Of a stretch of 64,000 nt of DNA, positions 15,037 through 57,595 are shown piece by piece. A model generated the notes under the pieces. That model did not search any database, was not told where the DNA came from, and was given only the letters and a program-made list of their open reading frames with translations. Position numbers and translations under genes: made by a program. The stretch comes from a virus. Every line of letters begins with the position of its first letter. Within the stretch, counting starts at the first letter, position 1. The stretch spans positions 1 to 64,000 of the IMG/VR virus record IMGVR_UViG_3300036770_004723. The stretch is one strand, 5' to 3'.

Positions 15037-15069
15037 ACTGAATTCCTTTACACTAATTTATTACTATAG

Positions 15070-15078
15070 TATTTACAG
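15070..15078 (-). promoter_or_regulatory. CTGTAAATA promoter-like motif
   Basis: Minus-strand CTGTAAATA, 33 nt before the RNase H start at 15036, identical to the motifs at 11150-11158 and 63652-63660. It lies in the 55-nt gap between divergent genes. The plus-strand promoter of the tail operon must be in or near the same gap. The stretch TACACTAATTTAT at about 15050 recurs before the gene at 22000 and is a weak candidate. Confidence 0.6.
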
Positions 15079-15091
15079 ATCGAGGTATCTA

Positions 15092-15382: not shown

Positions 15383-15810
15383 TGTTTCCTTCTATAGCAA
15401 AAATATCAAGTAGTAGCCAAACAAGTGTTTTTAATTATACTTTTAGCGATGTCAATCTACAATTTAGTAACCAGCCTGATGAATTTGTCTATGATATAGA
15501 TGCCGTCATTCAGGCTTTTCTCATTTTGTTAGGTACTCCAAAGCGAGAACGTTGGTGGCGGCCTGAGTGGGGAACTTATAGTCTGGAAAAGCTTTTGTTT
15601 GAACCTTTTGATATAACAACAGCTGACCAAATAGCTGAAAGCATTAAATCTATTTCTGAATCTTCAACTAATGGAAATATACGTTTAATAATTGACGGTG
15701 TTAGTGTTAGACCTGACTATAGTACGCAAACATACGAAGTAAATTTAAGAATAAATGTGCCTGAGTTAGGCAATAAAAAAGTACAATTCTTTCTAAGACA
15801 GCCGGAATAA
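15379..15810 (+). CDS. gp25-like baseplate wedge protein
   Basis: Homologue of T4 gp25, the wedge protein that links the sheath to the baseplate. The family signature is visible as GTPKRERWWRPEWGTYSLEKLLFEPFD (residues about 54-80; T4-type members have ..R..RPE.G....LLFEP), followed by the helix ITTADQIAESIKS. The length of 143 aa is normal for the family. The ATG overlaps the stop of the PAAR gene, and the gp6/J-like gene follows after 9 nt, the standard order in contractile-tail operons. Confidence 0.9.
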   Translation: MMFPSIAKISSSSQTSVFNYTFSDVNLQFSNQPDEFVYDIDAVIQAFLILLGTPKRERWWRPEWGTYSLEKLLFEPFDITTADQIAESIKSISESSTNGNIRLIIDGVSVRPDYSTQTYEVNLRINVPELGNKKVQFFLRQPE

Positions 15811-15819
15811 GGATTCTTT

Positions 15820-30500: not shown

Positions 30501-30896
30501 TCATTGGCTGCTGGAGAATTTGATTCAAATCCTTCAGGTAATTTTAATAACGCCCGTTATTATAAAGTAGGCAGTTATAAAAATGATTCTACTCTCACTT
30601 ATGAGTGCAAATGGGAATACGTGGTTAAGGTAAAGGATTACGCAGCTAATTTAGTTTTTTTACCTACATCAATCACCAGTTTTCAACCTATTTCCTCGAA
30701 TAAACGTTTTATAGTTTCTATGAATGTGCCAGCAGGTACAGAAGTAGATCAAACGGCAATAGTGGAAGCAAACTTAATTATTAAAGATAGTTTAGGTAGA
30801 ATATCGAAAAGTAATACAGTGACAATTGTTTTAACTTACGTAGTTCCTGGTTGGGGAGGTGGCGGTGATACTGGACCTAGCGGAATTGTTTTCTAG
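27585..30896 (+). CDS. Large modular tail-fibre protein with split Calx-beta domain, 1103 aa
   Basis: I chose ATG 27585, with GGGGATTAGGA upstream, not the TTG at 27570. The N terminus contains FIRSPDNRTWYQLDP. Three copies of a beta module follow at about 170-265, 294-407 and 437-517. Each holds a VYY.G / EIYH.G / SIFD hairpin, then IRV....W.Y, and the second and third end in a Cys (LFCQN, VGCP). Next is the first half of a Calx-beta domain (about 541-577, ending TSDGTA). An inserted alpha/beta domain of about 285 residues comes next, and then the second half (about 864-930, SGTVVIPAGQSSGTF). The end is glycine-rich (GWGGGGDTG). Probably a receptor-facing fibre. Confidence 0.8.
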   Translation: MARLRFRSPYNNKWLDACNHQIFIRSPDNRTWYQLDPKRASVRDGGNLNWLELDCNPDPLFDEPCAFKDIASVNCPSGTPTIELGSGDGTGSNGPQFNLVNGYPAGYDLPDAGSSGFFLDTLISSAKGLAIKRPALNFALESYDPSGTTSNLGRGTYDNPNYLWATTFSSGCAITETIYDLGLVAGWYEIPFACYHPEGISVDVYYLGRRIATTCGRIKDRYKIEFFFDPSAGSGESRIMIRVRGEESTRWSLMVIGPKQNLSVYNLDWTDLTQALAIRQDEYNGTPIFPAPCHATVFPRTYKTNDGKWFYEFHHYVGENADPTEIARMVLDYSSWMNHDKFEIYHGGLRIGSTMDPTTLLGMIEFLWEPNRFVIPVPDLMIRVSAENREYGQDIMSWYYTLFCQNTAGYRANPWPCETPIAGLSSMGHSSTEDNYNMDNGVQKGVVSVKVIPYGDFNYSVSIFDIDQNLISYTEASKTAFIQFFIFKDQHGNSRNRITVRIDAPLGSSWTYFVGCPVELIDIEIDDKVVPVCDGDVEISIQNLSIQKNTTGKFTLNTNIPVPSDLTINVATSDGTALSALGAANYGGLPNIYGIFNDVDSISDGATVATKSGRFLIQNFPTASVIFDNGWGNLANPEYKGKTLGSNTRFAENILTSTFANLSPDARVLINSWKHRLGDLSGKRWLILTDTSDSLSDFSVICSNFIQSMINIYGLTVQVVKDDYSNLPALYDILTIANSKKWADVGKYSSGGVHYINRVLQGYKSPVAIGIATQIKQNKVFHAYFKNSANRLSENIFIRDVMNCFTGVKLQWNEQVSKSLSVPSVSLNVHTQQFPDTPLTNGITEQKLDTDFSVIDMRYDTVVNLDPDYEARSGTVVIPAGQSSGTFDVRTLDPAANPVGKFFFLDLLTSSYGDIVEEQGKATIINSTAPNPVTDVHFTKTSYAAMTWTSDAGCSVVFGVDSANLDLGDMIGSLAAGEFDSNPSGNFNNARYYKVGSYKNDSTLTYECKWEYVVKVKDYAANLVFLPTSITSFQPISSNKRFIVSMNVPAGTEVDQTAIVEANLIIKDSLGRISKSNTVTIVLTYVVPGWGGGGDTGPSGIVF

Positions 30897-31377
30897 GTCA
30901 GGACATACAGTTCAATCTTTATTAATTGAATCATCTAATCTAAATAACCCTCCGATTATAATCGGAGGGTTTGCTAGACATCTACATGATCTAAAAGGTT
31001 TTAATGATATTGATTGGCTTTGCTATGACCAGACTAGTTTTGTGCAAATGTGCAATTTAATGAATAAACATTTTGAGTTAATAGCTATTTCCATATGCAA
31101 AGACTACTTTTATTATAAAGAAGTTGTTGGCGCGAACAAAATAATTCATCAGGTTCATACTTTACCTAATGTTGGTTGTCACCATGATTTTTTAAACTAT
31201 GCTGATTTTACTGTTAGCTGCATAGGCTTTAATTATACGACTATAATTAAACATCGTTTATTTGATTATGATCTTAAACAAAGTATTTTAAGAAAAAACG
31301 AAAGTTATGTTAAACCTTTTGATAGATCTAGGATCAAGAAATATACGGATCGTGGATTTAAAATGAATTTAATTTAG
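30865..31377 (+). CDS. Nucleotidyltransferase-fold protein, 170 aa
   Basis: Contains the signature of the nucleotidyltransferase superfamily: IIIGGFARHLHDLKGFNDIDW, that is GG, 13 residues, then D-x-D, as in poly(A) polymerase and related enzymes. Later, HHDFLNYADFTVSCIGFNY could supply the third acidic residue. It is short, so possibly only the catalytic domain. What it modifies is unknown. The gene starts inside the end of the 1103-residue fibre gene: GGAGG at 30855 is 5 nt before GTG 30865, and another GTG lies at 30859. A perfect 26-bp palindrome sits in the coding region just before the GG motif. An enzyme among fibre genes is unusual. Confidence 0.6.
   Translation: MILDLAELFSRSGHTVQSLLIESSNLNNPPIIIGGFARHLHDLKGFNDIDWLCYDQTSFVQMCNLMNKHFELIAISICKDYFYYKEVVGANKIIHQVHTLPNVGCHHDFLNYADFTVSCIGFNYTTIIKHRLFDYDLKQSILRKNESYVKPFDRSRIKKYTDRGFKMNLI
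30946..30971. repeat. Perfect 26-nt palindrome inside the nucleotidyltransferase gene
   Basis: The 13 nt AACCCTCCGATTA are followed directly by their exact reverse complement, giving a GC-rich stem with essentially no loop. It starts 50 nt after the stop of the 1103-residue fibre gene. In RNA it would form a very strong hairpin, but there is no following T-tract. It could attenuate transcription, limit RNA decay, or bind a dimeric protein as DNA. Confidence 0.9.
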
Positions 31378-31387: not shown

Positions 31388-34300
31388 ATGGCTGGAACAC
31401 CTTTTGTATCAGTTTATGAAAATTTAAATGCAGATCCAGCAGACACAGTTGCGAATTATACTTGGAAATACGATCACGAGTATATTGTTTATGTAGTAGA
31501 AAGACATAAACGTACTGAATTAGGTATGAGTTATACACTAACACTAAGATCTGCTATAGGTTCATCTGATAGAGGATTTATCGCCAAACACATCGACTGC
31601 TATGTTATATTTGATCAGCAGGATATGAAAATAAAAACACAGACTAGACAAGGTGATTGGTGTCCGATAGTAAAAATACTAGAAAGACCTGTAACATTTG
31701 GTGTAACTGATCATACTTCTGAGAATTGGGAAGAGTGGTGGACAGGTACGGCAGCTCAAGTATCAAAACCTTGGGAAGATGACTACGAATATTTTGTACT
31801 TTCAAGTCAAGGTGCTGCCCCTGGAAATATAGGTTGGTCAAGTTTTGTTACTTCTTTACATTTTTTTATACCTGAAGAATTTGAACAAGTCCCTATAAAT
31901 GGTGAGTGCTTTATGCGCCCCACTGTGGATGGAGGTATTAAGTTTTGGCGTCCACATTGGGGTGGAAATAAAAGTAGTAGATACGTAGCTACTTGGGGCA
32001 ACGTATCTATTATTTCACATATATATAGAAGAAAAATTCGTTTTGATACAGCACCATCAAAACAATTTAATAGTTGGTTTAAAAAGCAAATATTCGGTTT
32101 TCCTTATGGCGTATATGCAGGTAATAAATGGCGCGATGCGAAGCCATGTAATTGGGTAGAAGATAAAGAAGTTATTATGATGACCTTGGACTGTTCTGGT
32201 CCTGACGAATTAGCTTCCTCTTATTTTTTTACCGATAGTGCTATGTTTACTTTGCCTAGTAGTGTAATGAATTATAGTGAAGGGGGCATGGTATGCGAGT
32301 CGGGAGTTAGTCATTTTACCATGTTAAATACTCCCAATTTTGCAAGACACGGTGTTAAAACTGTGCATACCTACGGAGATGATGGTGCAACTGTTTTTGT
32401 AATGTATGAAAAACTGGATGTTTTAGCTGACGATCCTGTTATTATTGTTCCTCCTGAACCAGATCCTAAGCCGCCGTCATGTTCAGACTGTGTAAGGGCA
32501 GGATCTATTTGGGAACAAACTGCAAATATTGAAGTAAAATTTTTAAAGCCTGTTGATTGGCAATTACGTAATTACCGTTACGTGTGGTCCGGTGATATAG
32601 GTAATGGAAATGTTGAGTTACTTGGAACCGAAGACAAAGGGCGTATTGCCAAAATTCGTTTTGCAAAACAAATGGCAGTTGAAGACTCTTCAACCTTTTT
32701 ACCTGTTAATATTGTAGTAGAAGTATTTGACGAAGATTATAGTGCAATAGGTATATCTGATAAAGATAGCGCAGTAATATCTTTTGAATTGCCTTGTGTA
32801 ATATTAGCGAACGAACCTAATATATCTATACAGGATTTAAGTATTATAGAAGGTGATGTCGATAATAAAATACTGTTAAAAATTTCTGCCAGTGAGCCAG
32901 CTGAAGGTGGAGATATAACAGTTGATTGGACTACAGTTGAAGACACTGCAACGAATAATGTAGATTATTACCAAGCTAGCGGGACCGCTACTATAGTCGA
33001 AGGATCAAGTGAAGCTATTGTGGAAATAATGTTGATAGGTGATGATATTTTAGAAAGCAATGAAACTTTTATTGTACGTATTTCAAATGCAAGTCGTGGA
33101 AATATTGTTAAAGATACAGGTATCATAACTATACTAGATGATGATGCAAGTCCTTGCGGTGTAGATACGCCAGCAGGCGGTGCAGGTGTAACAGAAACAA
33201 CACATTTCTTAGGCTCTAATCCTGGACGTGTTATAGTTACATTTGAAATGTACGGTGTACAAGATAAAATGGAAATTTTTTATGAAGGAAATTTAGTTGC
33301 GGCCACAAGCCCAGGTCCTGATGGTAAAAATGTACCAGGAGGTAATATTTTAAATCCTGGATTCGTTAGCGATCAAGGTAATCTTTCTTTTGACTATTTT
33401 GGTCCACCTAGAGCAACTTCATTTATGATCAGAATGACAGGTCCTGATGGAACTGAATGGAATTATAAATTTAATTGCCCTGTTCCTTTCGATGGTGGAT
33501 GGGATGGAAAATTAGATGCAGTTCCTACATTAATATTCGATCCTTTAGGTAATGGTACTGAGTTTGACGCAGGTTTGTTTATTATGCCTGATGGATCTAT
33601 CCAAGCAACTTCTGCTTCAGGACCTTTAGGTTATTGGAGTGGGGCAATTGCAAATAGCTCTAATTCCGAAGTAAAATTTGAAGTTATTTCTGGTACGGCA
33701 AGTGTACATAATAATGCTCCGGATTTTTCACCTTTAGCATCTTCCAGACAAATATGGTTACGTCTTCCATTAAATTCTCCTGTTACTGAAGTAACTATTA
33801 GAGTTTATTTGCGTGAAGCCGGTTCTACAACAGCAATAGTAACTAAAGACGTGGTGTTAAAAGTAGGATCTGGAGGAACTGGAGGTGGAGGCAATGGCTG
33901 TTTTATTTACGGCACATTGATCGACATGGCTGACGGTACTAAAAAGAAAATTGAAGATATTGTTGTAGGTGATAAATTAAAAACTTTATTAATACCTGAT
34001 ATGCCGGACGCAAGTGCAGAAGATCCTACCAGCTATTTCGATTGGTCTGAAATAGCTATCGCACCTACTTATGCGGAATGTTATGTAAAAGATGTGGATC
34101 ATAATAGCTTTAGTTATTATTACAAAATATTTGCAGAAAATATGTTTGAACCTTTATGTATAACAGTAGAACATCCGGTATTAGTTAAATTTCAAGAACA
34201 AGGTATGGAATGGCATTGGGATACACCAGCTAGATTAAGAATAGGTGATTATCTTTATAATAATAAGATGGAAGCAGTTAAAATTTTGACGATAGAAATA

Positions 34301-34420
34301 GTGGTTGAAAAAATAAATACCGCTAATTTAAACGTAGAAAATTTAGATACATATTTTGCTAACGGTATATTTGTACATAATAGTGAAAATACAGAAACAC
34401 CTAAAGAACCTATAGGGTAA
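31388..34420 (+). CDS. Tail-fibre protein with Calx-beta and intact Hint domain, 1010 aa
   Basis: Order: N-terminal region of about 370 residues (unrecognised), Cys-rich linker (SCSDCVRAG), beta domain, a complete Calx-beta domain (about 477-588, ISIQDLSIIEGD to ILDDDAS), and a beta module with EIFYEGNLV...WNYKFNCP related to those in the 1103-residue fibre. Another beta domain, a glycine-rich linker and a Hint domain from Cys838 to Asn998 follow. The Hint domain has block A CFIYGTLIDMADG, block B TVEH (TxxH) and the FVHN end, followed by Ser999 and 11 more residues. All residues for autocatalytic cleavage or splicing are present; there is no room for a homing endonuclease. AGGATAAGAAAA precedes the ATG. 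Confidence 0.85.
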   Translation: MAGTPFVSVYENLNADPADTVANYTWKYDHEYIVYVVERHKRTELGMSYTLTLRSAIGSSDRGFIAKHIDCYVIFDQQDMKIKTQTRQGDWCPIVKILERPVTFGVTDHTSENWEEWWTGTAAQVSKPWEDDYEYFVLSSQGAAPGNIGWSSFVTSLHFFIPEEFEQVPINGECFMRPTVDGGIKFWRPHWGGNKSSRYVATWGNVSIISHIYRRKIRFDTAPSKQFNSWFKKQIFGFPYGVYAGNKWRDAKPCNWVEDKEVIMMTLDCSGPDELASSYFFTDSAMFTLPSSVMNYSEGGMVCESGVSHFTMLNTPNFARHGVKTVHTYGDDGATVFVMYEKLDVLADDPVIIVPPEPDPKPPSCSDCVRAGSIWEQTANIEVKFLKPVDWQLRNYRYVWSGDIGNGNVELLGTEDKGRIAKIRFAKQMAVEDSSTFLPVNIVVEVFDEDYSAIGISDKDSAVISFELPCVILANEPNISIQDLSIIEGDVDNKILLKISASEPAEGGDITVDWTTVEDTATNNVDYYQASGTATIVEGSSEAIVEIMLIGDDILESNETFIVRISNASRGNIVKDTGIITILDDDASPCGVDTPAGGAGVTETTHFLGSNPGRVIVTFEMYGVQDKMEIFYEGNLVAATSPGPDGKNVPGGNILNPGFVSDQGNLSFDYFGPPRATSFMIRMTGPDGTEWNYKFNCPVPFDGGWDGKLDAVPTLIFDPLGNGTEFDAGLFIMPDGSIQATSASGPLGYWSGAIANSSNSEVKFEVISGTASVHNNAPDFSPLASSRQIWLRLPLNSPVTEVTIRVYLREAGSTTAIVTKDVVLKVGSGGTGGGGNGCFIYGTLIDMADGTKKKIEDIVVGDKLKTLLIPDMPDASAEDPTSYFDWSEIAIAPTYAECYVKDVDHNSFSYYYKIFAENMFEPLCITVEHPVLVKFQEQGMEWHWDTPARLRIGDYLYNNKMEAVKILTIEIVVEKINTANLNVENLDTYFANGIFVHNSENTETPKEPIG

Positions 34421-34651: not shown

Positions 34652-35428
34652 ATGAATCTTACACAAATACCAATGGCTTTGGTAAAGCCTCAAACAGGCG
34701 CTATAGCAGGCCAAACAGTTAGTGTCGTAAGTCCAGAAAAATTAGGTACTGAGGATCCGCAATCAGGGTTAGTTCCTGCTGTAATACAAGGAACTTATGA
34801 TAGTGAAAGCGGAACAGTAACATTAGTAAATGCTGACGATAGTATTGTTACCATAACTGGATTTCCAACTGAGAGATCATTACCGCAAGGCCACAGAGGA
34901 CCTGAAGGTAAAGTTGGCTTACGTGGTTTACCTGGTAGGTCAGGACGAGATGGTAAACCAGGAATACAAGGTTGTCCAGGAGTTAAAGGAGATCGTGGAT
35001 TACGTGGGCCGATAGGGCCAGAAGGGCCAAGAGGCCCACAAGGAGAAATAGGTAAAACAGGTGAGAAAGGTGATAAGGGAGATAAAGGTGACGCAGGTGC
35101 TGACGGCGTAGAACCTGAATATTTAAAAACTAGTCGTGGTGTTTCTATCACAATAAAAAGAAGTGGCGGAAATATACAAAGCGGCTATTATGAAAATATT
35201 TTACAGGATAGAACAATTACTGTGCTTTTCCCGCGTAACCTTGTTAACCAAGTAGCATCAATAATTCTTTTCTTTAAAAATCCTAGCAGCTACCAAGCAC
35301 AAAATTACGAAATAGGGAACTATTTTTATGATGACCTTGAAATTGGTGGCTTTACAATAACTTTAAAAGGTACTGTACCTACACCGCTAGAAGCTTGGCA
35401 ATTCTGGTGGCTGGTAATGGGCGATTAA
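34652..35428 (+). CDS. Collagen-like fibre protein, 258 aa
   Basis: Fourth collagen-like paralogue: N-terminal domain beginning MNLTQIPMALVKP and ending ITGFPTERS, Gly-X-Y triplets at about 80-152 with Cys108 in the tenth triplet (GIQGCPGV), then a beta-rich C-terminal domain of about 105 residues (NIQSGYYENILQDRTITVLF) unlike the short caps of the other paralogues. It lies 7.6 kb from them, separated by fibre genes, so the family was dispersed by rearrangement. Probably a trimeric stalk with a distal knob. Confidence 0.83.
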   Translation: MNLTQIPMALVKPQTGAIAGQTVSVVSPEKLGTEDPQSGLVPAVIQGTYDSESGTVTLVNADDSIVTITGFPTERSLPQGHRGPEGKVGLRGLPGRSGRDGKPGIQGCPGVKGDRGLRGPIGPEGPRGPQGEIGKTGEKGDKGDKGDAGADGVEPEYLKTSRGVSITIKRSGGNIQSGYYENILQDRTITVLFPRNLVNQVASIILFFKNPSSYQAQNYEIGNYFYDDLEIGGFTITLKGTVPTPLEAWQFWWLVMGD

Positions 35429-35968: not shown

Positions 35969-36907
35969 ATGGATCAGCTATTAGTAAGTTTAATTACGGA
36001 GTGTTTAGCTAAATCAACTACATTAGGCATAACAGGATCTAATACAGTTGTATTATCTGTAGGTGCATCAGATAATGAAAGTGTTAATATTTATGTGAGT
36101 TACATAGAACCGAATTTAGCGGAGCTTCCGTTAAATTTTATGTGGTTGGTGGCAGATCAAAATAGCGGTAATTACAGAAAACTATTAAAGCGTGTTTCAC
36201 GTATAAGTACACCGCCATTTAATAATACTTATATTGAGTTAAGTACACGGCAAGAAGTTTTAACCAATTACATGCAATATGATCAAGCTAGCTTGATCCG
36301 AAGCGCTTTAATTAACCACGTTGTTAGTACAGGTAACAGTCACAATGCAACACCTACACAATTAAGTTCTGTTAATGTAGGTGGAGATCAAATGGTAGGG
36401 CAGTTGTTAGCCCGAGCCAATTGGAGAACTGTTCCATTAGTGCCTACAGAATTTATACCAAATCAAAGATTGATCGATGCACAGAATGCGCAAACAAATG
36501 GATTCTACACGATCATAATGCAGTTAAATTCTAGAGTAAGTAAAGTAGAGGAAGAACTAAGGAATTTAAAACTAGGTAGGATAAAAGAATTAGAGGATAG
36601 AGTTACATTAATTGAAGAAACTGGTAATGGATCTATTGATATAGGTATTGTACCAAGAACTTATGTTCACATACAAGAAACGGAACAAAGTATTTGGACA
36701 ATTAATCATAGACTAGGTAATACAGACCTAATAGTTCAATACTGGGTAGCTCAATTAGATGGTGATGGAAAAACAGTTTACGAAGTTGCTGTAGCTGAAT
36801 CTATAACTTTGTTAGATGGTGAATTTTTAGTTGTAGAACATAACATGCCGGTAAAAGGTAAGGTTGTAATTCTTGAGGCAGGTTTAGATCCTGCACCTAT
36901 TAATTGA
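35969..36907 (+). CDS. Tail-fibre protein with coiled coil and distal WxIxH domain, 312 aa
   Basis: The N-terminal two fifths look structural (LTNYMQYDQASLIRSALINHVV). A coiled coil follows at about 190-220 (LNSRVSKVEEELRNLKLG, ELEDRVTLIEE). The C-terminal domain opens with YVHIQETEQSIWTINHRLG, the motif (H.Q....W.I.H.LG) also found in the genes at 41239 and 41859 and in altered form at the end of the 566-residue fibre. A trimeric fibre with a distal binding domain is likely. AAGGCTTAATCT precedes the ATG. The four-gene membrane/secreted cassette follows. Confidence 0.72.
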   Translation: MDQLLVSLITECLAKSTTLGITGSNTVVLSVGASDNESVNIYVSYIEPNLAELPLNFMWLVADQNSGNYRKLLKRVSRISTPPFNNTYIELSTRQEVLTNYMQYDQASLIRSALINHVVSTGNSHNATPTQLSSVNVGGDQMVGQLLARANWRTVPLVPTEFIPNQRLIDAQNAQTNGFYTIIMQLNSRVSKVEEELRNLKLGRIKELEDRVTLIEETGNGSIDIGIVPRTYVHIQETEQSIWTINHRLGNTDLIVQYWVAQLDGDGKTVYEVAVAESITLLDGEFLVVEHNMPVKGKVVILEAGLDPAPIN

Positions 36908-36933: not shown

Positions 36934-37884
36934 ATGAAAGTTTTTACATTAGTTTTTATTTTACTTTTGTCTTTTAATTGTTGGCCTCACAGTTTAAAGA
37001 TAGAAAACAAGCCAACAATATATCTGGTAACACAGAATCCGTTAGGTGCTTATTATGGAGATAGAGTAGCAAATCATTTAGCAAAGTCATTTAAAGATCA
37101 CCAAATAAATACATACTACCTGAACATGGATATAGGCACGTCAGATTCTAATATTAATTATTTGCTGAATTTGATAGTAGATGACATAAATAAAGTAAAT
37201 CCCAGCTTTGTTTTTGTTCATAATTCAGGACTGACGGTAGCCCTGAAAAAAGAATTAGGTTCGAAGTATATAATAAGTGATTTCTCAGTAACTAATACTA
37301 AGGATGACGTGTTACTAGAAGATCCTATAACAAAACTTATTTCTATATTAGATGCTTTTGACTACACAGTAGGTAAATATTATATAATAACGGATAAGAC
37401 AAATCAAAGTAAAAGAAATTCTTCTTTGTTCAAAAGATTGCTAAAAGCTAACAAAGTTAAAGACGTAGACATAGAGATACTTGAGGTCTCTGATGCAAAG
37501 AATTTAACTAAAGAGTTAAATAGACTTAACGGTTTACCTAAAGGTGTTATATTTAATGCGCTGTACTTGCTTCGTGATAATGAATTAAATAAAATAAAAT
37601 ACGCGGTAGAGCTGAAAAATCAACTAACAGAATTCAATAAAAAACACATTGATGTCAGTCCTTACTTAAGTGTTGGAGGCAATGAAGCACTTATATTTCT
37701 AATTGACTTAAATCAAGCCAACAGCTTTTTTAAAAAGTATATCAATAAGTCTTCAGATTCTGAAATAGAAAGGGCAAACTTTAAGGTATTGTTGAATGTT
37801 GATAGATTCGATAAGCTGGGATTAAAGGAGCATTATATGAAAAATATAAATGTTATTGATGGAGTAATTTATGACAAACATTAA
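36934..37884 (+). CDS. Secreted periplasmic-binding-like protein, 316 aa
   Basis: A signal peptide is clear: MKVFTLVFILLLSFNCWPHS, with a likely cleavage around residue 20. The mature part is alpha/beta and resembles type 1 periplasmic binding proteins of the ABC_sub_bind kind. It has repeated strand-helix units such as IYLVTQNPLGAYYGD, PSFVFVHNSGLTVALKKELG, YIISDFSVTN, VGKYYIITDKTNQSKR and GVIFNALYLL. This is an inference from the overall pattern; no ligand can be named. AAGG lies well upstream of ATG 36934. It overlaps the next gene, a one-pass membrane protein, by 14 nt. An exported solute-binding-like protein inside a tail-fibre operon is unexpected. Confidence 0.6.
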   Translation: MKVFTLVFILLLSFNCWPHSLKIENKPTIYLVTQNPLGAYYGDRVANHLAKSFKDHQINTYYLNMDIGTSDSNINYLLNLIVDDINKVNPSFVFVHNSGLTVALKKELGSKYIISDFSVTNTKDDVLLEDPITKLISILDAFDYTVGKYYIITDKTNQSKRNSSLFKRLLKANKVKDVDIEILEVSDAKNLTKELNRLNGLPKGVIFNALYLLRDNELNKIKYAVELKNQLTEFNKKHIDVSPYLSVGGNEALIFLIDLNQANSFFKKYINKSSDSEIERANFKVLLNVDRFDKLGLKEHYMKNINVIDGVIYDKH

Positions 37885-38158
37885 TCCTAATCATATAAAG
37901 AGTTTGCTTATTATATTTGTAGCAATAGCGCTCTTTATGTTTTTAGGAGAGTTTTTTCTTAATGCAAAGGATGATAAAGAAAAAGCAATAAAAAACGAAA
38001 TAGTACTGTGCGCAAGCGCAATATGTATTAATAAGAAAATTGGACATCAATGTCTTGAAATAGATCCTGCCATGACACGGATAGTAATCGCAGAAGATCC
38101 TAATTCTAAGTCTCAACGTATTATCATAGAGACAGGAAACAGTTGTGCAAACAACTAA
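37871..38158 (+). CDS. One-pass membrane protein, 95 aa
   Basis: A short polar N terminus is followed by one hydrophobic span (about residues 10-30, LLIIFVAIALFMFLGEFF). The C-terminal domain of about 60 residues contains four cysteines (LCASAICINKK, HQCLEI, NSCANN), which would fit a disulphide-bonded periplasmic domain. GGAG lies before ATG 37871, inside the end of the secreted-protein gene. The gap to the next gene is 9 nt. No family is recognised. Confidence 0.7.
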   Translation: MTNINPNHIKSLLIIFVAIALFMFLGEFFLNAKDDKEKAIKNEIVLCASAICINKKIGHQCLEIDPAMTRIVIAEDPNSKSQRIIIETGNSCANN

Positions 38159-38167
38159 GGGCTTAAA

Positions 38168-38698
38168 ATGGGTGATGTGTTTAAAGTGATATTAGATCAG
38201 TCACCAAGCACCGCAATTCTACTGCTGATTATTCTAGGTATGTCGTGGTTCATTTATAGTCACGCATTGCCTGCTATTCAAAATTTAAAAAATCATGAAA
38301 TAGAAAAAGAAGCGTGGATTAAAGAGCGTAATGATCTTAATACTATAATTGCCAACCACGTAGTTAACGATAAAACAGAACAGTTAATACAAGAATTAAT
38401 AAAAACTTGTCAGGCCACACATCAAAAAGTTTCTGAACTATCTTTACAAGTAGATGATGATTTTGAAAAGCTTGCAAAAGAAGTAGAGAACTTAATGCGT
38501 TTGTATCGTGAACTGATAGCATCAAGTGATAGTAATATGCTAAGAAGAACAGAAGGAGTGGATGCGAACCTTCAGTTAATAACGCAGCAAGTAAGTATTG
38601 TAAGTCACAAGTTATCAGGAATAACAGGCTTACTGGTTGGGAACCAACATAGAGCTGCACTCGAACTCATGGGTAGTGAGTTTAAGGATCTCAAGTGA
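38168..38698 (+). CDS. Membrane-anchored coiled-coil protein, 176 aa
   Basis: N-terminal transmembrane span at about 15-32 (TAILLLIILGMSWFIY), then a long charged helical region (about 40-150) with heptad-like spacing (ELSLQVDDDFEKLAKEVENL), suggesting a coiled coil. AAGGGCTTAAA precedes ATG 38168. It overlaps the next gene by 1 nt (TGATG). With the two genes before it, it makes a membrane/periplasm set. Not recognised. Confidence 0.7.
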   Translation: MGDVFKVILDQSPSTAILLLIILGMSWFIYSHALPAIQNLKNHEIEKEAWIKERNDLNTIIANHVVNDKTEQLIQELIKTCQATHQKVSELSLQVDDDFEKLAKEVENLMRLYRELIASSDSNMLRRTEGVDANLQLITQQVSIVSHKLSGITGLLVGNQHRAALELMGSEFKDLK

Positions 38699-39426
38699 TG
38701 TCTCTTGAATTTAAATCGATCATTTGCGAAACCAATTCAAGATCTTGGTTGTGCAAGAACCAACTAATAAGAATGTTTCTGAATTCGAAAAAATACAAAT
38801 TCAGTAATACAAGTTTAACAGTGCTTGAATCTGAAATAGATCTTACAACAGATCTAATTCGTTTAACGGAAAAAGAATTTTTAGATAATTTAGATATTAT
38901 CGAGGCCAGAAGAAACATACTGGAAAAATCCAGATTGTTGATGGCTACTCACATTGATTCTTTAAAGTCGAACACAAAATTAGAGCCTAGTCTATTGTTA
39001 GTGTATATGGCGGTCAAACAAAAATACATCAAAGTTTTGTTAGACAGATTAGCGGTATTCCTTCAACAAGAAAAAGAATTAAGCTATCCAGAAATAAGCA
39101 ATTTTTTATGTAGCGTATTAAACCACTTGGCCTTGATCTTAAGTGAGATAGACTATTTGGTATTCTGGAAGTCAGTGGACAATTTTGATCCTTTTGTTAC
39201 AATAGACTATTTAGATCTCGTGTTTACACGGGATATAGATAGAAACTTTATAACAGAAAGATTAAAATTTTATAAGGAAAATAATCTGTTACGTGATCCA
39301 TTTTTGTGTGTGAAGTTATATGTAAGTGCAGAAAGATTGGATAGTGATACAACATTATCTGATAGCTACGAACTTGCATTAGTAGAAATAAAAAAGTGTG
39401 GTTTTAAAATAATCTCCATTCTGTAG
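38698..39426 (+). CDS. Hypothetical helical protein, 242 aa
   Basis: Not recognised. ATG 38698 in TGATG overlaps the preceding stop; the GTG at 38695 is less likely. Helical throughout, with LTVLESEIDLTTDLIRLTEKEF and several Leu-rich helices and no membrane span, so probably cytoplasmic or a peripheral partner of the membrane proteins. It is the last gene of the four-gene cassette. The next gene (39455) has a different base composition. Confidence 0.7.
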   Translation: MSLEFKSIICETNSRSWLCKNQLIRMFLNSKKYKFSNTSLTVLESEIDLTTDLIRLTEKEFLDNLDIIEARRNILEKSRLLMATHIDSLKSNTKLEPSLLLVYMAVKQKYIKVLLDRLAVFLQQEKELSYPEISNFLCSVLNHLALILSEIDYLVFWKSVDNFDPFVTIDYLDLVFTRDIDRNFITERLKFYKENNLLRDPFLCVKLYVSAERLDSDTTLSDSYELALVEIKKCGFKIISIL

Positions 39427-39454: not shown

Positions 39455-41155
39455 ATGTCTAAGCAATACGGTAATCTGGTATTCATGGGTCAAGGCCAAG
39501 TAAAAAACTTCACACCTGAAAAACTGGCGGCAGATCCAGTAGGTGTTGGTTTATGGGAAGGTCGCGTATGGACCAACGAAACTGAAAAATGTATTAAGTT
39601 CTTTTTAGATGGTGAAGTTAAGCAAGTTGCTGAAGGCGGTTCACTGGAAGATTATTTACGTCGTGACGGCACACTGAACATGTTGGCAGACCTGACTTTA
39701 AGTTCAGATGATCAAAGTGCTGCCGCAGACACTACTGCTGTAAGTAAGAAACATGTTGAAACTCGCTTATCTACCAAACAAAATACTGTAACTGGCGCAG
39801 CAACTTCAATCGTTACAGCAGATTTAACTGCTGAACGTGTTGCTGTTTCTGATGCAAGCGGTAAAGTTGCAGTTTCTGCTGTTACTACTACTGAATTGGG
39901 CTATGTTGGCGGTGTTACTTCAGGCATTCAAGCACAGATCGACAGCAAACAAGATGACCTTGGTTATGTACCAGTAAATCGCGCTGGTGATAGCATGACC
40001 GGCCAGCTGGCAATGAACAACGAACGTATCATTGGTGTAGGCGCTCCAGTTAACGCAAACGATGCAATTCGTAAGATCGATCTTGATACTGCAATCGCAA
40101 ACTTAAACTGGCAAGATGACGTATTAGCAATTCAAGTTGATAATACTTTAGTTCCAGAATTAGTTGAAGGTTCTCGTTACATTGTCACTGACGTTGCAAA
40201 TTTAAATGCGGGTTTCGGTGTTATTGCTGATGTAGCAAATAATGATATCGTTGAATATGTCGGCGGTGCTTTCGTTGTTGCATACGATATTAGTGCTGCT
40301 GGTGCGCAAGCTGCTGGTACTTTTACTACCAATATTGCTGACGGTTCATTCTATCGTTACAATGGTTCATGGTCACGTTTCGAAGGTGTTGACAGTATTG
40401 TTGCTGGTACGGGTTTAGTGCGTTCAGGTAACGTTTTCAACGTTAACATGGGTGCCGGTATTTCTGAATTACCTTCAGATGAAATCGGTATTGATGTACG
40501 TGCTAACGGTGGTTTATTTCTTACTGAAGATGGTTCAGTTGCCTCAACTGGTGCAAGCGCACAATTAGCTGTACTGTTACAGTCTACTGGCGGTCTGGAT
40601 ATCGGTGTTGACGGTGGCGTACAAGTTAAATCACAAGGTATCGTCGCAGCAATGTTAGGTGCTGTTGCTGCAAACGGTTTAACTGGTGGTAACGGTGTAG
40701 CTGTTAGTGTTTTAGCTGCTGACGCTTCTTTAACTGTTGATGTGTCTGGCGTTAAATTAAATGAAACACACACTGACGGCATTTATGCCCGTCAAGATGG
40801 TGCAGATTTTACTGGCGCTGTTACTGTACAGGCTCCAACTGCTAATGCAAATCCGGCTACAAAACTGTATGTTGATACAAAAGAAACTGCGTTACAGGAT
40901 GCTATCACAGCAGTAAATGCTCGCGTAACTGACGGTCATTTTGTTTATGATGGTACTGCTGCCGCTGCGTCAACACACACTGTTGCACACGGTATCGGTC
41001 AGAAATATGTTTCTGTAACTGTAGTAGATGAATTCGACAACGTTGTTGGCGTTGATGAAATTACTTATGTTGATGCAAACACTTTAACAGTTTCTGTATT
41101 GCCTGCAAGTAAAATCCGTGTAATCTGTGTTGGTTCGGCTCCAGTAGTAGCATAA
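39455..41155 (+). CDS. Tail-fibre protein, 566 aa, distinct base composition
   Basis: It has recognised fibre features. The N-terminal module YGNLVFMGQGQVKNF is related to that of the next gene. Repeats include LTAERVAVSDASGKVAVSA and KQDDLGYVPVN. The shaft motif DSMTGQLAMNNERIIGVG followed by PVNANDAIRK is widespread in phage fibres. A C-terminal domain STHTVAHGIGQKYVSV matches the W.I.H.LG distal domain family. Codons here use C and G in third position much more than neighbours (CGT, CTG, GGC, GCA/GCT rich in Ala, Val and Asp). High expression or recent acquisition could explain this. GAGGTATAT precedes the ATG. A terminator follows at 41182-41208. Confidence 0.85.
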   Translation: MSKQYGNLVFMGQGQVKNFTPEKLAADPVGVGLWEGRVWTNETEKCIKFFLDGEVKQVAEGGSLEDYLRRDGTLNMLADLTLSSDDQSAAADTTAVSKKHVETRLSTKQNTVTGAATSIVTADLTAERVAVSDASGKVAVSAVTTTELGYVGGVTSGIQAQIDSKQDDLGYVPVNRAGDSMTGQLAMNNERIIGVGAPVNANDAIRKIDLDTAIANLNWQDDVLAIQVDNTLVPELVEGSRYIVTDVANLNAGFGVIADVANNDIVEYVGGAFVVAYDISAAGAQAAGTFTTNIADGSFYRYNGSWSRFEGVDSIVAGTGLVRSGNVFNVNMGAGISELPSDEIGIDVRANGGLFLTEDGSVASTGASAQLAVLLQSTGGLDIGVDGGVQVKSQGIVAAMLGAVAANGLTGGNGVAVSVLAADASLTVDVSGVKLNETHTDGIYARQDGADFTGAVTVQAPTANANPATKLYVDTKETALQDAITAVNARVTDGHFVYDGTAAAASTHTVAHGIGQKYVSVTVVDEFDNVVGVDEITYVDANTLTVSVLPASKIRVICVGSAPVVA

Positions 41156-43565: not shown

Positions 43566-44074
43566 AAATGAATGTTGCTGCATCAAATCTAATGTTTCAA
43601 AGAAATTTATCAAGTCCTGTTGCTTTAAAATATCAAATTATTTTTGTACAAGGCTTTACTCACACTGCCTTAGAGCTAGAGAACAACTTTAATAATGTTG
43701 TTGGAGGCACGTTAACAAACATAAATACTTTAATAACTCAAATTGCAGGCAGAGGCGGAAAAGTAGTAGCTTTTGCTGAATTATTACCTAATACAGATCC
43801 TGTACTTAAAAATAACTTTGTTAATTTACTTGATTTTAATTGGAGTAAATTAAATCCAACTATTATAGCATCAGGTACACCTGACTGGTTTTTAATTTAC
43901 GTAAGAAATTCAAACGTAGCTTATAATGCGGCAGGTCCTTGTGTTTGGTCCGTGTATGGCACTATTACAAATTTTTCAGGTAACGGCGACCTTAAAGTAG
44001 GTAATAGAAATATGCTACTAGGTCAAATGTACAGCATGGGCAATTTTAGATTGAAACGTGAGGAAGTAATATGA
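43562..44074 (+). CDS. Adhesin array, B-type protein B1, 170 aa
   Basis: B-type features: an FAELLP block, IIASGTPDWFLIYV, then VYGTITNFSGNGDLKVGN and the C-terminal NFRLK. In other B copies the same positions read SGTASFFTIFF, SVGIEGSNADLIL and DFDFKL. So this is a small beta-rich structural protein, probably partner of the neighbouring A protein. It overlaps both A0 and C1 by 4 nt (ATGA type), which points to fixed stoichiometry. Confidence 0.68.
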   Translation: MKMNVAASNLMFQRNLSSPVALKYQIIFVQGFTHTALELENNFNNVVGGTLTNINTLITQIAGRGGKVVAFAELLPNTDPVLKNNFVNLLDFNWSKLNPTIIASGTPDWFLIYVRNSNVAYNAAGPCVWSVYGTITNFSGNGDLKVGNRNMLLGQMYSMGNFRLKREEVI

Positions 44075-44460
44075 GTAATAACCTTCTTCATCAGGCTAAT
44101 TTATTCGGCCAAGATTTCGATCAAAGTCTTTTCTTTTTCCGTCCAAAACAATTCACGTTTGATTTAAAATTGGATGATCTTGAAATAGTTAATACATCCA
44201 ATCCATTCTTAAATTTTAACTCTGAACCGATTAAAGTTGATTTTATAGATTCAAAAAATACAATTTTTGAATTCAATACAAACTCTTTGTCGGTGGATAT
44301 TATAAGATCTAAATCTAGTAAGTTTTCTTTTTCAGGTATGGGTATAAATTTAGGTATTTTGACAGCAAACAAAACATTAAATTCGCAGTTCACAAATACA
44401 ATAAATTCAAATATAGTGTTTGTACGTGAATCCTTTTTAAGCATTTCAATTTCAATTTGA
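44071..44460 (+). CDS. Adhesin array, C-type protein C1, 129 aa
   Basis: An unusual small protein rich in Asn, Ser, Phe and Ile (KQFTFDLKLDD, FSFSGMGINLGIL) that looks like repeated beta strands. It ends VFVRESFLSISISI, nearly identical to the end of C2 at 48833-49429. The DNA around the stop (TTTCAATTTCAATTTGAGG) is also nearly the same. No known family. GAGGAAGTAAT precedes ATG 44071 inside B1. Confidence 0.68.
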   Translation: MSNNLLHQANLFGQDFDQSLFFFRPKQFTFDLKLDDLEIVNTSNPFLNFNSEPIKVDFIDSKNTIFEFNTNSLSVDIIRSKSSKFSFSGMGINLGILTANKTLNSQFTNTINSNIVFVRESFLSISISI

Positions 44461-44468: not shown

Positions 44469-45467
44469 ATGGAAACATTTGGATTAAATGCCACAATCAC
44501 TGAAGCAATGAAAAATACTATGCCGACTAGAGCATTAGCTTATTTATTTAACAATACTATGCCTGTGGATTTTAATTCACTTGGATTCCCACTGACAGCA
44601 AAAGGTCTTATCGAAAATTGCTCCAATGTACTAGTATTAAATAGTTACTTCGTTAATACAGAAGCCCGTAGTACATATTTTACAAGCTCTGCTTCTTTAA
44701 TTAAATCTGGTGATGTTGTAGCACAGTATCGCGGTGAACCCGTAACTGTACGTGAAGGTGCAAATGTAAGTTCTTCTTTTGCAGATCACGTCGTATGGTA
44801 TCCTAAATCAATTACCTGTAAAAATGACTACCGTGATCATAATACTTTTACTTGTTTTATGTACAAGACAAATGGTGAGTACGGTTTTGACGGCTTAGAT
44901 ACTTTTATTGCACGTACTACAGAAAACGACGAAGCAATTGTTTTTGAGTATGATACGGAACTTAGTGTTAATTGCTTTGGTATCAAGCAAAGCACAACAG
45001 TAGGTCAAGTAGCCAATCAGTTTGTTGTAGAGCGATGGGACGGCAATACGTGGGTAAGTATTGAAACAACGCCCGCCAATCAAACAGGCTATTTAATAAT
45101 TCGTTTTGCTGAAGTAACTGCTTCAAGATTCCGTATTAGGAAAATTGCTACTACAGGCGCTGTGGCTAACATTGATGTGGCGTTTGCTTACTTCGGTAAA
45201 TTTGGTTTTGCTCAAAATGAATTAAGAAAAAATGTAGTAGCGCCTAAATTTGCGATTATTGTACCAGAGCATATTTCAGCAACCACACTGAACAATTTAA
45301 TTACAAAGCAGAATGATATTTACGGAAACAGAAATTCAGATACTGATCATCTAATCATGTGCAGTGCTGGAACACCAGATCAAAATGTCTATATGCGAGT
45401 AAATTTTCCGTCAAACGACGTAAACAGTAAATACAATTTTTATCTGGTAGCAGGGCAATTACTTTAA
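44469..45467 (+). CDS. Adhesin array, A-type protein A1, 332 aa
   Basis: Begins METFGLNA, has YLFNNTMPVDFN, then HVVWYPKSITCKNDYRDHNT, GFDGLDTF, and a discoidin-like domain (about 155-245: EAIVFEYDTELSVNCFGIKQ, ERWDGNTWVSIE, SRFRIRK). The end block is FAIIVPEHIS...IMCSAGT. It aligns along its full length with A5 (52366-53352). Discoidin-type domains bind sugars or lipids, so a surface-binding role is plausible. GAGGTAAAAC precedes the ATG. Confidence 0.75.
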   Translation: METFGLNATITEAMKNTMPTRALAYLFNNTMPVDFNSLGFPLTAKGLIENCSNVLVLNSYFVNTEARSTYFTSSASLIKSGDVVAQYRGEPVTVREGANVSSSFADHVVWYPKSITCKNDYRDHNTFTCFMYKTNGEYGFDGLDTFIARTTENDEAIVFEYDTELSVNCFGIKQSTTVGQVANQFVVERWDGNTWVSIETTPANQTGYLIIRFAEVTASRFRIRKIATTGAVANIDVAFAYFGKFGFAQNELRKNVVAPKFAIIVPEHISATTLNNLITKQNDIYGNRNSDTDHLIMCSAGTPDQNVYMRVNFPSNDVNSKYNFYLVAGQLL

Positions 45468-48293: not shown

Positions 48294-48833
48294 ATGAAAT
48301 TTAATAAAGGTGCTATGTTAGCACATACATTCGCATACCACAGAACAGATCTTGCGAATACAGCTAGTGTTACTGTTAGCTTTTTTACAGGGCCTGTGGA
48401 TTTAACAGCGACTGAACGAAATGTTTTCAACAGTGCCGTTGTAACCGCAGTAGCTAATGGTTTAATTAGTCATAGTGCTGCACGTACAGAACTCTTGAAG
48501 ACACGTACTGAATTAGGTCAATTATTTTTACCTAATTTTACTCAACGTCGGATCGGCGCAACACCTGATGAACGCATTTGGATGTTCACTCAACGTACTG
48601 AAGAAATGACGGGCTTAGCCGCAGGCACACCAACATTTGCACTAATCAGTTTGCATGGTGGAGGCGCTGCATATCAGGCAGGTAACATTTGTCGAACTAT
48701 GTTTGCTTGTTCTGTTGGTGCAGTAGGTGAGCCAAACGTTGAATTCGAATACAATGGAAATATTGTTGTAGGTCAACGTTATAAAATAAATGATTTCCGT
48801 TTCAAGATAAATAACTTACTTGGAGAAATCTAA
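48294..48833 (+). CDS. Adhesin array, B-type protein B3, 179 aa
   Basis: B-type motifs: VSFFTGPVDLTATE, LFLPNFTQRR, ERIWMFTQRTEEM, AGTPTFALISL, CSVGAVGEPNVEFEY and KINDFRFKI. Compared with neighbours, third codon positions are somewhat richer in G and C. It overlaps C2 by 1 nt (TAATG). GAGGTAAATA precedes ATG 48294. Probably a structural subunit alternating with A proteins. Confidence 0.7.
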   Translation: MKFNKGAMLAHTFAYHRTDLANTASVTVSFFTGPVDLTATERNVFNSAVVTAVANGLISHSAARTELLKTRTELGQLFLPNFTQRRIGATPDERIWMFTQRTEEMTGLAAGTPTFALISLHGGGAAYQAGNICRTMFACSVGAVGEPNVEFEYNGNIVVGQRYKINDFRFKINNLLGEI

Positions 48834-49429
48834 TGCCAAGTGTTCACATAGCTTCGTATTATGCGAATAGGTTTGATCCTGATACATTGTTTCCAGAACT
48901 TGCTATGTTCAAGAGTTCTGATGTTTTTTACGGTACAAATTTAACAGCATTAAATATAGAGGGCTTAGAGTTTACTCCTAAATTTGAAGGCACTTCAGTA
49001 AATGCACTGTATGTTAAAGATGTTGCAACAGATCTTTTAAGTAATTTTATACCTGAAGGCAATCCATTAATATCTAATCAAGTGGTAAATACTTTATCAG
49101 TTGTTAGTTTGATGGCAACATTAGGTTTGACATACTTAACTAATCCTTTCGCTGAGTTTGATATGGGAAATCAAATGAAAGCGGATCAACAAATTTACGC
49201 AACATACTCAATAGACTACAATTTAAAAAATATTGTCAATAAGTTAGATTACATGACCGATCTAGCTTTTGAATCTAAATCAGAAAATCAAAATCAATTT
49301 GTTCATGCAGGATACAAATTTTTTCTGATCAATACAATCGAACCAATGGAATCTTCTTTTATATCCAATTCTATCCCTAGTCCGGTTTTCATTAGAGAAT
49401 CTGTTTTAAGTATTTCAATTTCAATTTGA
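48833..49429 (+). CDS. Adhesin array, C-type protein C2, 198 aa
   Basis: C-type member 69 residues longer than C1. The N-terminal part (IASYYANRFDPDTLFPEL) is followed by Asn/Ser/Phe-rich strands. It ends PVFIRESVLSISISI, matching C1, and the DNA across the stop and the following GAGGTAAA is conserved as well. In both cases the next gene is A-type. The conserved tail may be an assembly or docking peptide. Confidence 0.7.
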   Translation: MPSVHIASYYANRFDPDTLFPELAMFKSSDVFYGTNLTALNIEGLEFTPKFEGTSVNALYVKDVATDLLSNFIPEGNPLISNQVVNTLSVVSLMATLGLTYLTNPFAEFDMGNQMKADQQIYATYSIDYNLKNIVNKLDYMTDLAFESKSENQNQFVHAGYKFFLINTIEPMESSFISNSIPSPVFIRESVLSISISI

Positions 49430-52344: not shown

Positions 52345-52365
52345 CTCAATTTGACGGGTAGTTAT

Positions 52366-55994: not shown

Positions 55995-56327
55995 ATGCAA
56001 GATCAAGTGTCAGCAGCGAATTTATTGGGACCACTGTTAAAATATAGTTGGGACTACTTTGTTATATCCTATTTATTTACAATGTTAGGTATAGCCATTC
56101 ACTATGTAAAAAAATGCGTACAGGAAAAATTAGATTTTGTACTTTACTGGACAGCAAACAAACAAAGTAGTATTCTGGTAGTTTTAACCGCAACAGCTAG
56201 TTACTTTACTACTTTGTTCGTGGATCCTAATCCTAATCTTTTAACTTTCTTGGCCATAAGTTACATGGCAGATAGTATGCTGAATAAAGATGGAGGACCT
56301 AAAAATGACAGAAGAAGCTCAGACTAA
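55995..56327 (+). CDS. Holin-like membrane protein, 110 aa
   Basis: Two to three hydrophobic spans are visible: about 20-40 (FVISYLFTMLGIAIHYV), 58-75 (SSILVVLTATASYFTTLFV) and 80-92 (LLTFLAISYMAD). A charged C terminus follows (KDGGPKNDRRSSD). Size, topology and position before spanin-like and DUF1353 genes fit a holin that controls timing of lysis. This is inferred from context; no family signature was identified. AAGGAAATATT precedes the ATG. The end overlaps the start region of the next gene. Confidence 0.6.
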   Translation: MQDQVSAANLLGPLLKYSWDYFVISYLFTMLGIAIHYVKKCVQEKLDFVLYWTANKQSSILVVLTATASYFTTLFVDPNPNLLTFLAISYMADSMLNKDGGPKNDRRSSD

Positions 56328-56646
56328 ATTGCCCTGGTATAAAAAATATTTTAATATACTGGTCTTTGTTTTGCTGGCTATTGCTGCTGGGATAGGTGCG
56401 GCGTTCGCTAATAGACGTGTGTTACCTCAAGAAAAACAGGACGCATTAGATAAGAGTCTGATTGATGAAAAGATTGATATATCTAACCAAATGGATGCGG
56501 ATTTGGATGCTAAAATTATAAAGGCTTTAGATACTTCAGCTAAAGCAAGTGAAACTATAGAAGAAATTAAACTAGCGGATAGTTTAAAAACAGATGACGA
56601 AAAAATCGAAGACCTTAATGATTTTATGGCAGACAGAAGAAGATGA
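56305..56646 (+). CDS. One-pass membrane protein with helical tail, 113 aa
   Basis: ATG 56305 has GGAGG 8 nt upstream, so it is preferred to ATG 56290. A short polar N terminus, one transmembrane span (about residues 17-38, FNILVFVLLAIAAGIGAAFA), then a charged helical region (LDAKIIKALDTSAKASETIEEI). The topology fits an inner-membrane spanin partner or an antiholin. The lipoprotein at 57122 would be the outer-membrane partner if it is not self-sufficient. It overlaps the DUF1353 gene by 4 nt. Confidence 0.55.
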   Translation: MTEEAQTKLPWYKKYFNILVFVLLAIAAGIGAAFANRRVLPQEKQDALDKSLIDEKIDISNQMDADLDAKIIKALDTSAKASETIEEIKLADSLKTDDEKIEDLNDFMADRRR

Positions 56647-57143
56647 CAGAACAATTTAAAGTAAGTACATCCAAAGTAAATACAGGATTTTGCCCACCTC
56701 CAATATTTTTAAATAAATTGCGGTTAGAATCTCTTGAAGGTGGATACAAATTTATACTGATCAATGATTTCACTATGGAATTTTCTTGGGACCTAGAAAA
56801 AAATATTGTGGTGCGAAAAGGAGATATTCAGGTAAGGAAGTACGTCACTGTTTCACTTACTGCTTGCTCTGGATTTGAAACGGATCTAATAAGCAGTCCT
56901 CGATTTTTATGGTCGCTGTTTCCTCCAGCAGGATCAGGTTTAATGTCTAGTGTAATACACGATTTACTTTATCGTAATGACGTACCTTCACCAGACGGCA
57001 AATATTTCGATCAAAAGGCAGCCGACAAGATCTTCAGAGCAGGTTTAGATATAGAGGAAAATGTTAGTGTCTGTAAGAAAGTTGCAATGTATACAGCTCT
57101 TAAATTGGCGGGGATTAGAGCATGGAAAGAAAATCGAAAATAA
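56643..57143 (+). CDS. DUF1353 family protein, 166 aa
   Basis: The DUF1353 signature is present: GFETDLISSPRFLWSLFPPAG, then SSVIHDLLYRN and an ADKIFRAGL helix (family: GF.TD..S.P......P..G....A...HD.LY). The family is widespread in phages, often beside lysis or tail genes; its biochemical role is unknown. The His-Asp pair and the TD motif suggest a metal site, but this is speculation. It overlaps both neighbours, by 4 and 22 nt, so it is translated with the lysis genes. Confidence 0.85.
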   Translation: MTEQFKVSTSKVNTGFCPPPIFLNKLRLESLEGGYKFILINDFTMEFSWDLEKNIVVRKGDIQVRKYVTVSLTACSGFETDLISSPRFLWSLFPPAGSGLMSSVIHDLLYRNDVPSPDGKYFDQKAADKIFRAGLDIEENVSVCKKVAMYTALKLAGIRAWKENRK

Positions 57144-57595
57144 TATTACTTTCTTTGTTTCTTTTAGGGTGTTCGGGCACACCTACAGAAAGAAAAGAAG
57201 TGATACTGAAAGAAATAAAAGAGTTTGAGTACACAGAAATAAAAAGTGTTGAAGTACCTAAGCCTTTTGTTAATGATGTTAAAAAATTCATTGACAGCAA
57301 CGGGCAATCATGGGCACTGGTACATGTAGATGATTTGTACTTGATTAAGCAGGCTTATGTAAGTGCAGAACAAAATGCTGAACTTGTAAAACAGCTTAAT
57401 CAAATTAACTATCTTACGGCACAAAGGGCTAATCTTATCAGGGAGTTAGTTGTCTTAGAGGCATATAGAGCGGAAAAGATGAAGATTAGTCTGGAAGACG
57501 AAAGAGCAGATTTTAGAGAACAGCAAATAAGAGCTAACATAGAAAACTTAACCTTAAAGATCATTACCATAATGTCATTAGGTTTAGCACTATAA
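57122..57595 (+). CDS. Spanin-like lipoprotein, 157 aa
   Basis: N-terminal lipoprotein signal: a basic start (MERKSKI), a hydrophobic segment, then the lipobox LLGCSG with the lipidated Cys at residue 17. The long middle is helical and charged (EQNAELVKQLNQINYL, RAEKMKISLEDERADFREQQI). The C terminus is hydrophobic (LTLKIITIMSLGLAL). An outer-membrane lipid anchor plus a C-terminal membrane segment is the layout of unimolecular spanins such as T1 gp11, which fuse the two membranes at the last step of lysis. The C-terminal segment is short (about 15 residues), so an o-spanin paired with the protein at 56305 is an alternative. Confidence 0.65.
   Translation: MERKSKIILLSLFLLGCSGTPTERKEVILKEIKEFEYTEIKSVEVPKPFVNDVKKFIDSNGQSWALVHVDDLYLIKQAYVSAEQNAELVKQLNQINYLTAQRANLIRELVVLEAYRAEKMKISLEDERADFREQQIRANIENLTLKIITIMSLGLAL

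Follow-up and report, generated by a model that had tools for sequence, protein, structure and literature searches.

Lodged between the fibre and structural genes of a virus recorded in IMG/VR, four genes (g1 to g4) prove to be real and co-inherited, having stayed together in Pseudomonas, Erwinia, Dickeya and Yersinia phages even though the corresponding parts are often less than a third identical. They encode a secreted protein with a predicted periplasmic-binding-protein fold, two one-pass membrane proteins and a soluble protein with a predicted helical bundle. This architecture is well supported; from it we infer a function, namely that the four products form a non-virion complex across the cell envelope that controls the end of infection, either by timing lysis or by responding to superinfection. 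Among the explanations weighed below this is the one we favour, albeit tentatively, the lysis or superinfection role being a guess from position and analogy.

Four genes inherited as a unit

The window, that is, the whole 64,000-nucleotide stretch analysed here, comprises the first 64 kb of a virus record of 286,584 bases. Within it, g1 (36934..37884, 316 aa), g2 (37871..38158, 95 aa), g3 (38168..38698, 176 aa) and g4 (38695 or 38698..39426, 243 or 242 aa) follow one another on the plus strand, with g1 and g2 overlapping by 14 nt, a gap of 9 nt between g2 and g3, and the start codon of g4 overlapping the stop of g3, an arrangement also present in several other lineages. The cassette sits between fibre-like g0 (35969..36907, plus strand) and the virion structural gene g5 (39455..41155, plus strand; phrog_16122, E 2e-121), which is the positional counterpart of PaBG gp257. 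Despite belonging to phrog_24148, labelled 'HNH endonuclease', g0 has no HNH match in Pfam and looks like a fibre protein. Because a scan of the window gave no credible terminator at either end of the cassette, and promoter-like sites occur at chance level, g1 to g4 are likely, judging by gene position, to be transcribed together with the fibre genes, and presumably late.

The surrounding fibre region has several features of its own. A fibre-like protein encoded at 31388-34420 carries a C-terminal Hint/intein-type domain (CFIYGTLIDMADGTKKKIEDIVVGDKL...ANGIFVHNS), and NCTB neighbours are annotated as intein-domain tail proteins. A collagen-repeat fibre protein lies at 34652-35428 (Pfam Collagen, E 3.7e-12), while a small protein with a nucleotidyltransferase-like GG...DxD motif (30859-31377) is encoded between two large fibre genes. 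Fibre genes also appear to have been duplicated: the METFGLNATI/METFGLNASI paralogues are found at 44469-45467 and 52351-53352, and the products of 44071-44460 and 48833-49429 both end in (V/I)RES(F/V)LSISISI.

Tblastn and profile searches recovered g1 to g4 in the same order in NCTB, Dickeya phages JA29 and JA11, Erwinia phage SNUABM_5 and Alexandra, and profile searches recovered them in PaBG (gp253-256), Lu11, Y3, Yoloswag and AD1. The four are also present in five IMG/VR lineages (L006, L008, L011, L013 and L016), in nine PaBG-like contigs, and in fHe-Yen9-02 and HRDY3; in another IMG/VR lineage, L017, the contig ends inside g3. Lu11 (L060, about 15511-15773) and HRDY3 (L076, 8129-8512) both have g2, yet it is unannotated there. 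With Alexandra proteins as queries, g4 found matches in 61 phage records and g1 in 57. Identity between the window and other members is mostly 15-32% for g1 to g4 and 34-50% for g5, and lineages with about 15-30% identity have the neighbours and gene order of the cassette in common. The phage group itself is already known, and the four genes are old within it. In Motura, profile searches found no cassette and a search for the empty site found no g5 either; since this phage does without g1 to g4, the cassette is not indispensable throughout. Outside phages, short-motif scans of 84,980 bacterial and archaeal genomes, which fall short of proving absence, found no relative of g4 or g2, and none of g4 was found among the plasmids scanned.

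Are these four genes, then, maintained by selection as a unit? In five close pairs, dN/dS was 0.089-0.127 for g1, 0.025-0.102 for g2, 0.037-0.147 for g3 and 0.049-0.095 for g4, so that each of the four is under purifying selection in the pairs tested. Pairwise identities correlate among g1 to g4 and with their neighbours (r about 0.7-0.93; against g0 and g5, 0.87-0.93 for g1, g2 and g4 and 0.70-0.72 for g3), the pattern that vertical inheritance of the whole unit would produce. A sequence-only reading of this DNA had proposed four ORFs forming one system that would recur in relatives. The ORFs are indeed real, with unchanged coordinates, dN/dS between 0.025 and 0.147 throughout, and the same four genes in the same order in distant phages. 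That reading had also put the system forward as a strong candidate for an undescribed one, and a limited check of the literature turned up no account of the cassette as a unit; database labels on its members are hypothetical, membrane protein or ABC transporter.

A secreted protein with a predicted binding-protein fold

The product of g1 begins with MKVFTLVFILLLSFNCWPHS, a signal-peptide-like segment without a lipobox, and homologues occur in all searched phages of the group except Motura. In the Dickeya and Erwinia phages (L002, L003, L004 and L005), the annotated g1 start leaves out the signal segment. Better starts are found at upstream in-frame codons inside the end of g0 (GTG in JA29), where they give MAGK/MARN-type openings, are preceded by purine-rich, Shine-Dalgarno-like sequences and encode a hydrophobic, signal-like segment. 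With these starts, the extended g1 shares 115-130 nt with the g0 counterpart in each of the four enterobacterial phages that were measured, and the fHe-Yen9-02 record already annotates the longer version. The published Dickeya and Erwinia starts are therefore probably too late, and once starts are corrected every g1 inspected has a signal-like N-terminus.

A likeness of g1 to periplasmic solute-binding proteins had been noticed from the letters alone, and the predicted structure strengthens it. The AlphaFold2 model (14 sequences; pLDDT 75.5, pTM 0.68) is a two-lobe alpha/beta protein for which Foldseek returned 162 PDB matches at E<=0.001. The best PDB matches by VIA-align are 6hnj/6hni (CD0873), 3lft (TrpX) and 3lkv (a V. 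cholerae homologue), all at Z 16.0-16.6 with an rmsd of 4.2-4.8 over 258-263 residues, the next match reaching Z 13.8. A type I periplasmic-binding-protein fold is thus well supported by prediction. We take these four entries to be ABC_sub_bind (PF04392) proteins. Because none of 20 g1 members matches PF04392 in Pfam, even at E<=1, g1 is, as far as the model goes, a fold relative of that family and not a filed member. More generally, g1 to g4 have no meaningful Pfam match, searches with PF00497, the amino-acid solute-binding family, gave no match in the phage's own genome, and PDB sequence searches gave chance matches only. Relatives of g1 in viral contigs were found when alignments of relatives were used for the scan, whereas g1 alone found nothing.

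One scenario is that g1 captures solutes: it would bind an amino acid or small molecule and feed a host transporter or phage-made uptake, as PstS of marine phages does. That its closest folds include the tryptophan-binding protein (3lft) and CD0873 speaks for this. However, the cassette includes no permease or ABC ATPase gene, g2 to g4 have one transmembrane segment or none, g4 is not an ATPase, and no g1 member matches the Pfam model of that binding-protein family. We therefore consider solute capture very unlikely.

Two one-pass membrane proteins and a soluble partner

Both g2 and g3 have a single strongly hydrophobic segment, with Kyte-Doolittle maxima of 2.75 and 1.99, respectively. In g2 this segment spans residues ~12-30 and is preceded by positive charge in 19 of 19 members, fitting a predicted N-in/C-out orientation with a short periplasmic domain. 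The Cys-rich domain earlier claimed for g2 holds up in that its cysteines (C47, C52, C61 and C92, all following the transmembrane segment) are invariant in 19 aligned sequences, but there are only four of them, which probably form two disulfides. In g3, the segment (residues ~16-34) follows a short N-terminus and is succeeded by an invariant proline, P35; the C-terminus is usually (D/E)L(R/K)xL(R/K)-like. Lysine and arginine number 0-1 before the segment and 1-5 just after it, which fits an N-out/C-in orientation for g3, a prediction given how short its N-terminal segment is. Its coiled coil, proposed from the character of the sequence and from weak SMC-like model matches of relatives, would then be cytoplasmic. 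The description of g3 as a membrane-anchored coiled-coil protein thus keeps its single anchor, while the charge pattern would place the putative coiled coil on the cytoplasmic and not the periplasmic side. PADLOC found no match for the window proteins and only weak, coiled-coil-type matches for relatives of g3.

For g4, the expectation of a helical soluble protein was borne out. The AlphaFold2 model (13 sequences; pLDDT 88.7, pTM 0.86) consists of a five-helix bundle (residues 3-157) and a small alpha/beta C-terminal domain (158-242), and there is no convincing transmembrane segment. Six residues (F35, E58, E150, R188, Y192 and K206) are invariant across all 22 sequences, a Vibrio phage sequence included. 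Structure searches gave no clear PDB match, only ordinary helical bundles (best Z 9.3), and a viral library yielded four strong matches, all to unnamed or uncharacterised proteins. By sequence, g4 matches phrog_19088 'ABC transporter' (PHROG 19088, E 6.7e-6), and thus shares the family match that carries this label in PHROGs and GenBank, but its predicted structure differs: searches for an ABC ATPase or permease domain gave no Pfam match and no NCBIfam match of note, and the helical bundle with its alpha/beta domain is neither an ABC ATPase nor a permease. We reject the identification, and regard the label as misleading and g4 as mislabelled.

A g4 is also present in six records of Vibrio phages, each about 191-196 kb long. 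In SRILMA, the Vibrio phage examined, g4 (L075, 14920-15759) overlaps a preceding one-pass coiled-coil gene (14522-14920) that matches the g3 profile weakly (E 8e-5); position and the start-stop overlap lend the match support. A search of the entire SRILMA genome detected neither g1 nor g2. The presence of a g3-g4 pair without detectable g1 or g2 suggests that g3-g4 is a separable core, to which g1-g2 were joined or from which they were lost. The pair adjoins an endonuclease VII gene on one side and an endolysin gene plus a tRNA cluster on the other, a setting that we take to be comparable to the T4 rI interval, although that interval is wide and the parallel no more than a hint. The same stretch of SRILMA (12490-17406) holds consecutive small genes, the products of which mostly have similar C-terminal motifs (PEDFI, PEEFI, PEWFL and PEMFI among them); these may represent a common tag, or the genes a tandem family.

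Virion parts or a complex in the infected cell?

Given where the cassette lies, its products might be minor virion or assembly factors that help to make or fit fibres, or parts of low abundance in the particle. In the members examined the genes do sit amid fibre and structural genes, and their identities track those of g0 and g5 at the correlations given above, a pattern that joint inheritance would equally produce. If they took part in cytoplasmic tail assembly, however, the signal peptide of g1 and the transmembrane segments of g2 and g3 would be ill suited to the task. Nor does any of the four resemble a tail part, in line with the sequence-only reading, there being no tail-family match in Pfam or PHROGs. 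Fourteen proteins have been identified in CsCl-purified PaBG particles (PMC7412058, Table 1). These include gp257, gp261 and gp263 but not gp253-256, the PaBG counterparts of g1 to g4; with 14 bands this proteome is shallow and covers abundant proteins only, and the same paper mentions further, unnamed virion-associated proteins (PMC7412058). The literature searched yielded no second virion proteome for the group. Taken together, we consider a virion or assembly role improbable: g1 to g4 are probably made in the cell, where they would form an envelope-spanning complex, and are probably not parts of the virion.

An envelope complex might also act against competitors; the sequence-only reading had suggested sensing, exclusion or receptor masking at the host envelope. 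In this scenario a complex of the periplasm and inner membrane would stop the DNA of related phages from entering, and g1 would be the part that blocks. In T4, Imm and Sp work in the same envelope compartment as the one predicted here. Further, g1 is among the faster-evolving parts: JA29 and Alexandra share 29% identity in g1 and 51% in g4, and its dN is the highest of the four genes in every close pair tested. At the same time, its dN/dS of about 0.1 is not that of a diversifying protein, and PADLOC returned nothing specific. Genes for exclusion are as a rule early and patchy in their distribution, whereas nearly every member of this old group has the cassette, and has it in the region running from the fibre to the lysis genes. 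Superinfection exclusion by blocked injection is accordingly possible but on balance unlikely; a position in a late operon and near-universal presence are explained at least equally well by a role in regulating the end of infection.

The cassette and the lysis genes

Downstream of the cassette, in the same gene run and about 16 kb away, the window contains a lysis-like module (55995..57595, plus strand). It comprises a holin-like protein with two hydrophobic peaks (55995-56327), a one-pass protein (56290-56646), a DUF1353 protein (56643-57143) and a spanin-like lipoprotein with an Rz-like spanin model match and a C-terminal hydrophobic segment (57122-57595); an endolysin-family match follows on the opposite strand (59812-60612). 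The spanin-like gene was found in five of five genomes searched. In Lu11 and HRDY3 the cassette is only about 1 kb from the lysis genes: g4 is followed by g5 and one short ORF, and then by one-pass, holin-like, spanin-like and M15-peptidase-like genes.

Might the cassette itself be the lysis machine, with a holin and an antiholin among its products? Two one-pass membrane proteins and a secreted regulator would provide suitable parts, and the position recalls that of T4 t, which directly follows the fibre genes. Yet the separate downstream module encodes a spanin-like protein as well as a stronger candidate for the holin, and no similarity to T or RI emerged: the T-holin family had no match in six genomes, and hhalign gave probabilities of 0.2-1.4% for g2 and g3 against T4 RI and T, a weak comparison given the single T4 sequences used. 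Since the lysis genes lie elsewhere, the cassette is probably not itself the lysis machine, and we rate that idea as highly improbable.

That the cassette might instead control lysis is suspected mainly because it sits between the fibre and lysis genes. Presumed production with the late proteins, from genes upstream of those for lysis, makes control of the end of infection the most probable role; exclusion ranks second and an assembly or minor virion role third. We picture g1 to g4 as a non-virion complex across the inner membrane of the infected cell. Exported g1 would act in the periplasm as a receptor or regulator with a solute-binding-protein fold and dock on the periplasmic Cys domain of g2; g2 would meet g3 within the membrane, and the cytoplasmic coiled coil of g3 would hold g4, the output part. 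The separable g3-g4 core would have gained g1-g2 as its input half. Presumably produced alongside the late proteins, the complex might hold or time lysis, or respond to a second phage. Physical association of the four products, the topology of g3 and the direction of signalling are all presumptive here. The role would resemble that of T4 periplasmic RI, membrane holin T and cytoplasmic RIII, with unrelated parts and a separately encoded holin.

A bolder version, which we consider rather unlikely as it stands, has the cassette as a signalling device: the periplasmic receptor would read a small molecule or an incoming phage component and signal through g2 and g3 to g4 in the cytoplasm so as to time the exit of a giant phage, the g3-g4 core being able to travel alone, as in the Vibrio phages, and g1-g2 serving as an exchangeable input half.

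Co-conservation in the face of such divergence points to an important, unstudied step in giant-phage infection. If a binding-protein receptor does sense conditions or other phages, phages would have one more means of choosing when an infection ends. The preferred reading also offers a function that can be tested for proteins now listed as hypothetical or, mistakenly, as ABC transporters, and relatives isolated on cultured hosts (PaBG, Alexandra, JA29 and Y3) put it within reach of the bench.

Comparison with known systems

Compared with ABC_sub_bind proteins (CD0873 of C. difficile, TrpX of S. pneumoniae, 3lkv of V. cholerae), g1 has the same predicted fold over its whole length, a signal peptide and a predicted periplasmic location, but no detectable sequence similarity. 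It also differs in its genetic company: instead of adjoining permease and ATPase genes, its neighbours are g2 to g4 and fibre and structural genes, so that its linkage is with a pair of one-pass membrane proteins and a helical, soluble one. PstS of marine phages, an acquired host uptake protein, is likewise a phage-encoded periplasmic binding protein; in contrast to PstS, g1 comes close to no Pfam model, is conserved within a single phage group and belongs to a fixed set of four genes.

A parallel in design is T4 lysis inhibition, where the regulator RI is periplasmic (PMC8385771, PMC11413866) and the T/RI/RIII system as a whole combines membrane, periplasmic and cytoplasmic parts (PMC11413866). 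The cassette would share this architecture, and the architecture only: a periplasmic regulator with a signal peptide, a membrane part and a cytoplasmic part. Position is comparable too, T4 t coming directly after the tail-fibre genes and the cassette between the fibre and lysis genes. Unlike the T4 system, to which we found no homology in the weak comparison with RI and T, the cassette keeps its four genes together and leaves the holin-like gene to be encoded apart, and its predicted receptor with a solute-binding-protein fold is a component without counterpart in T4.
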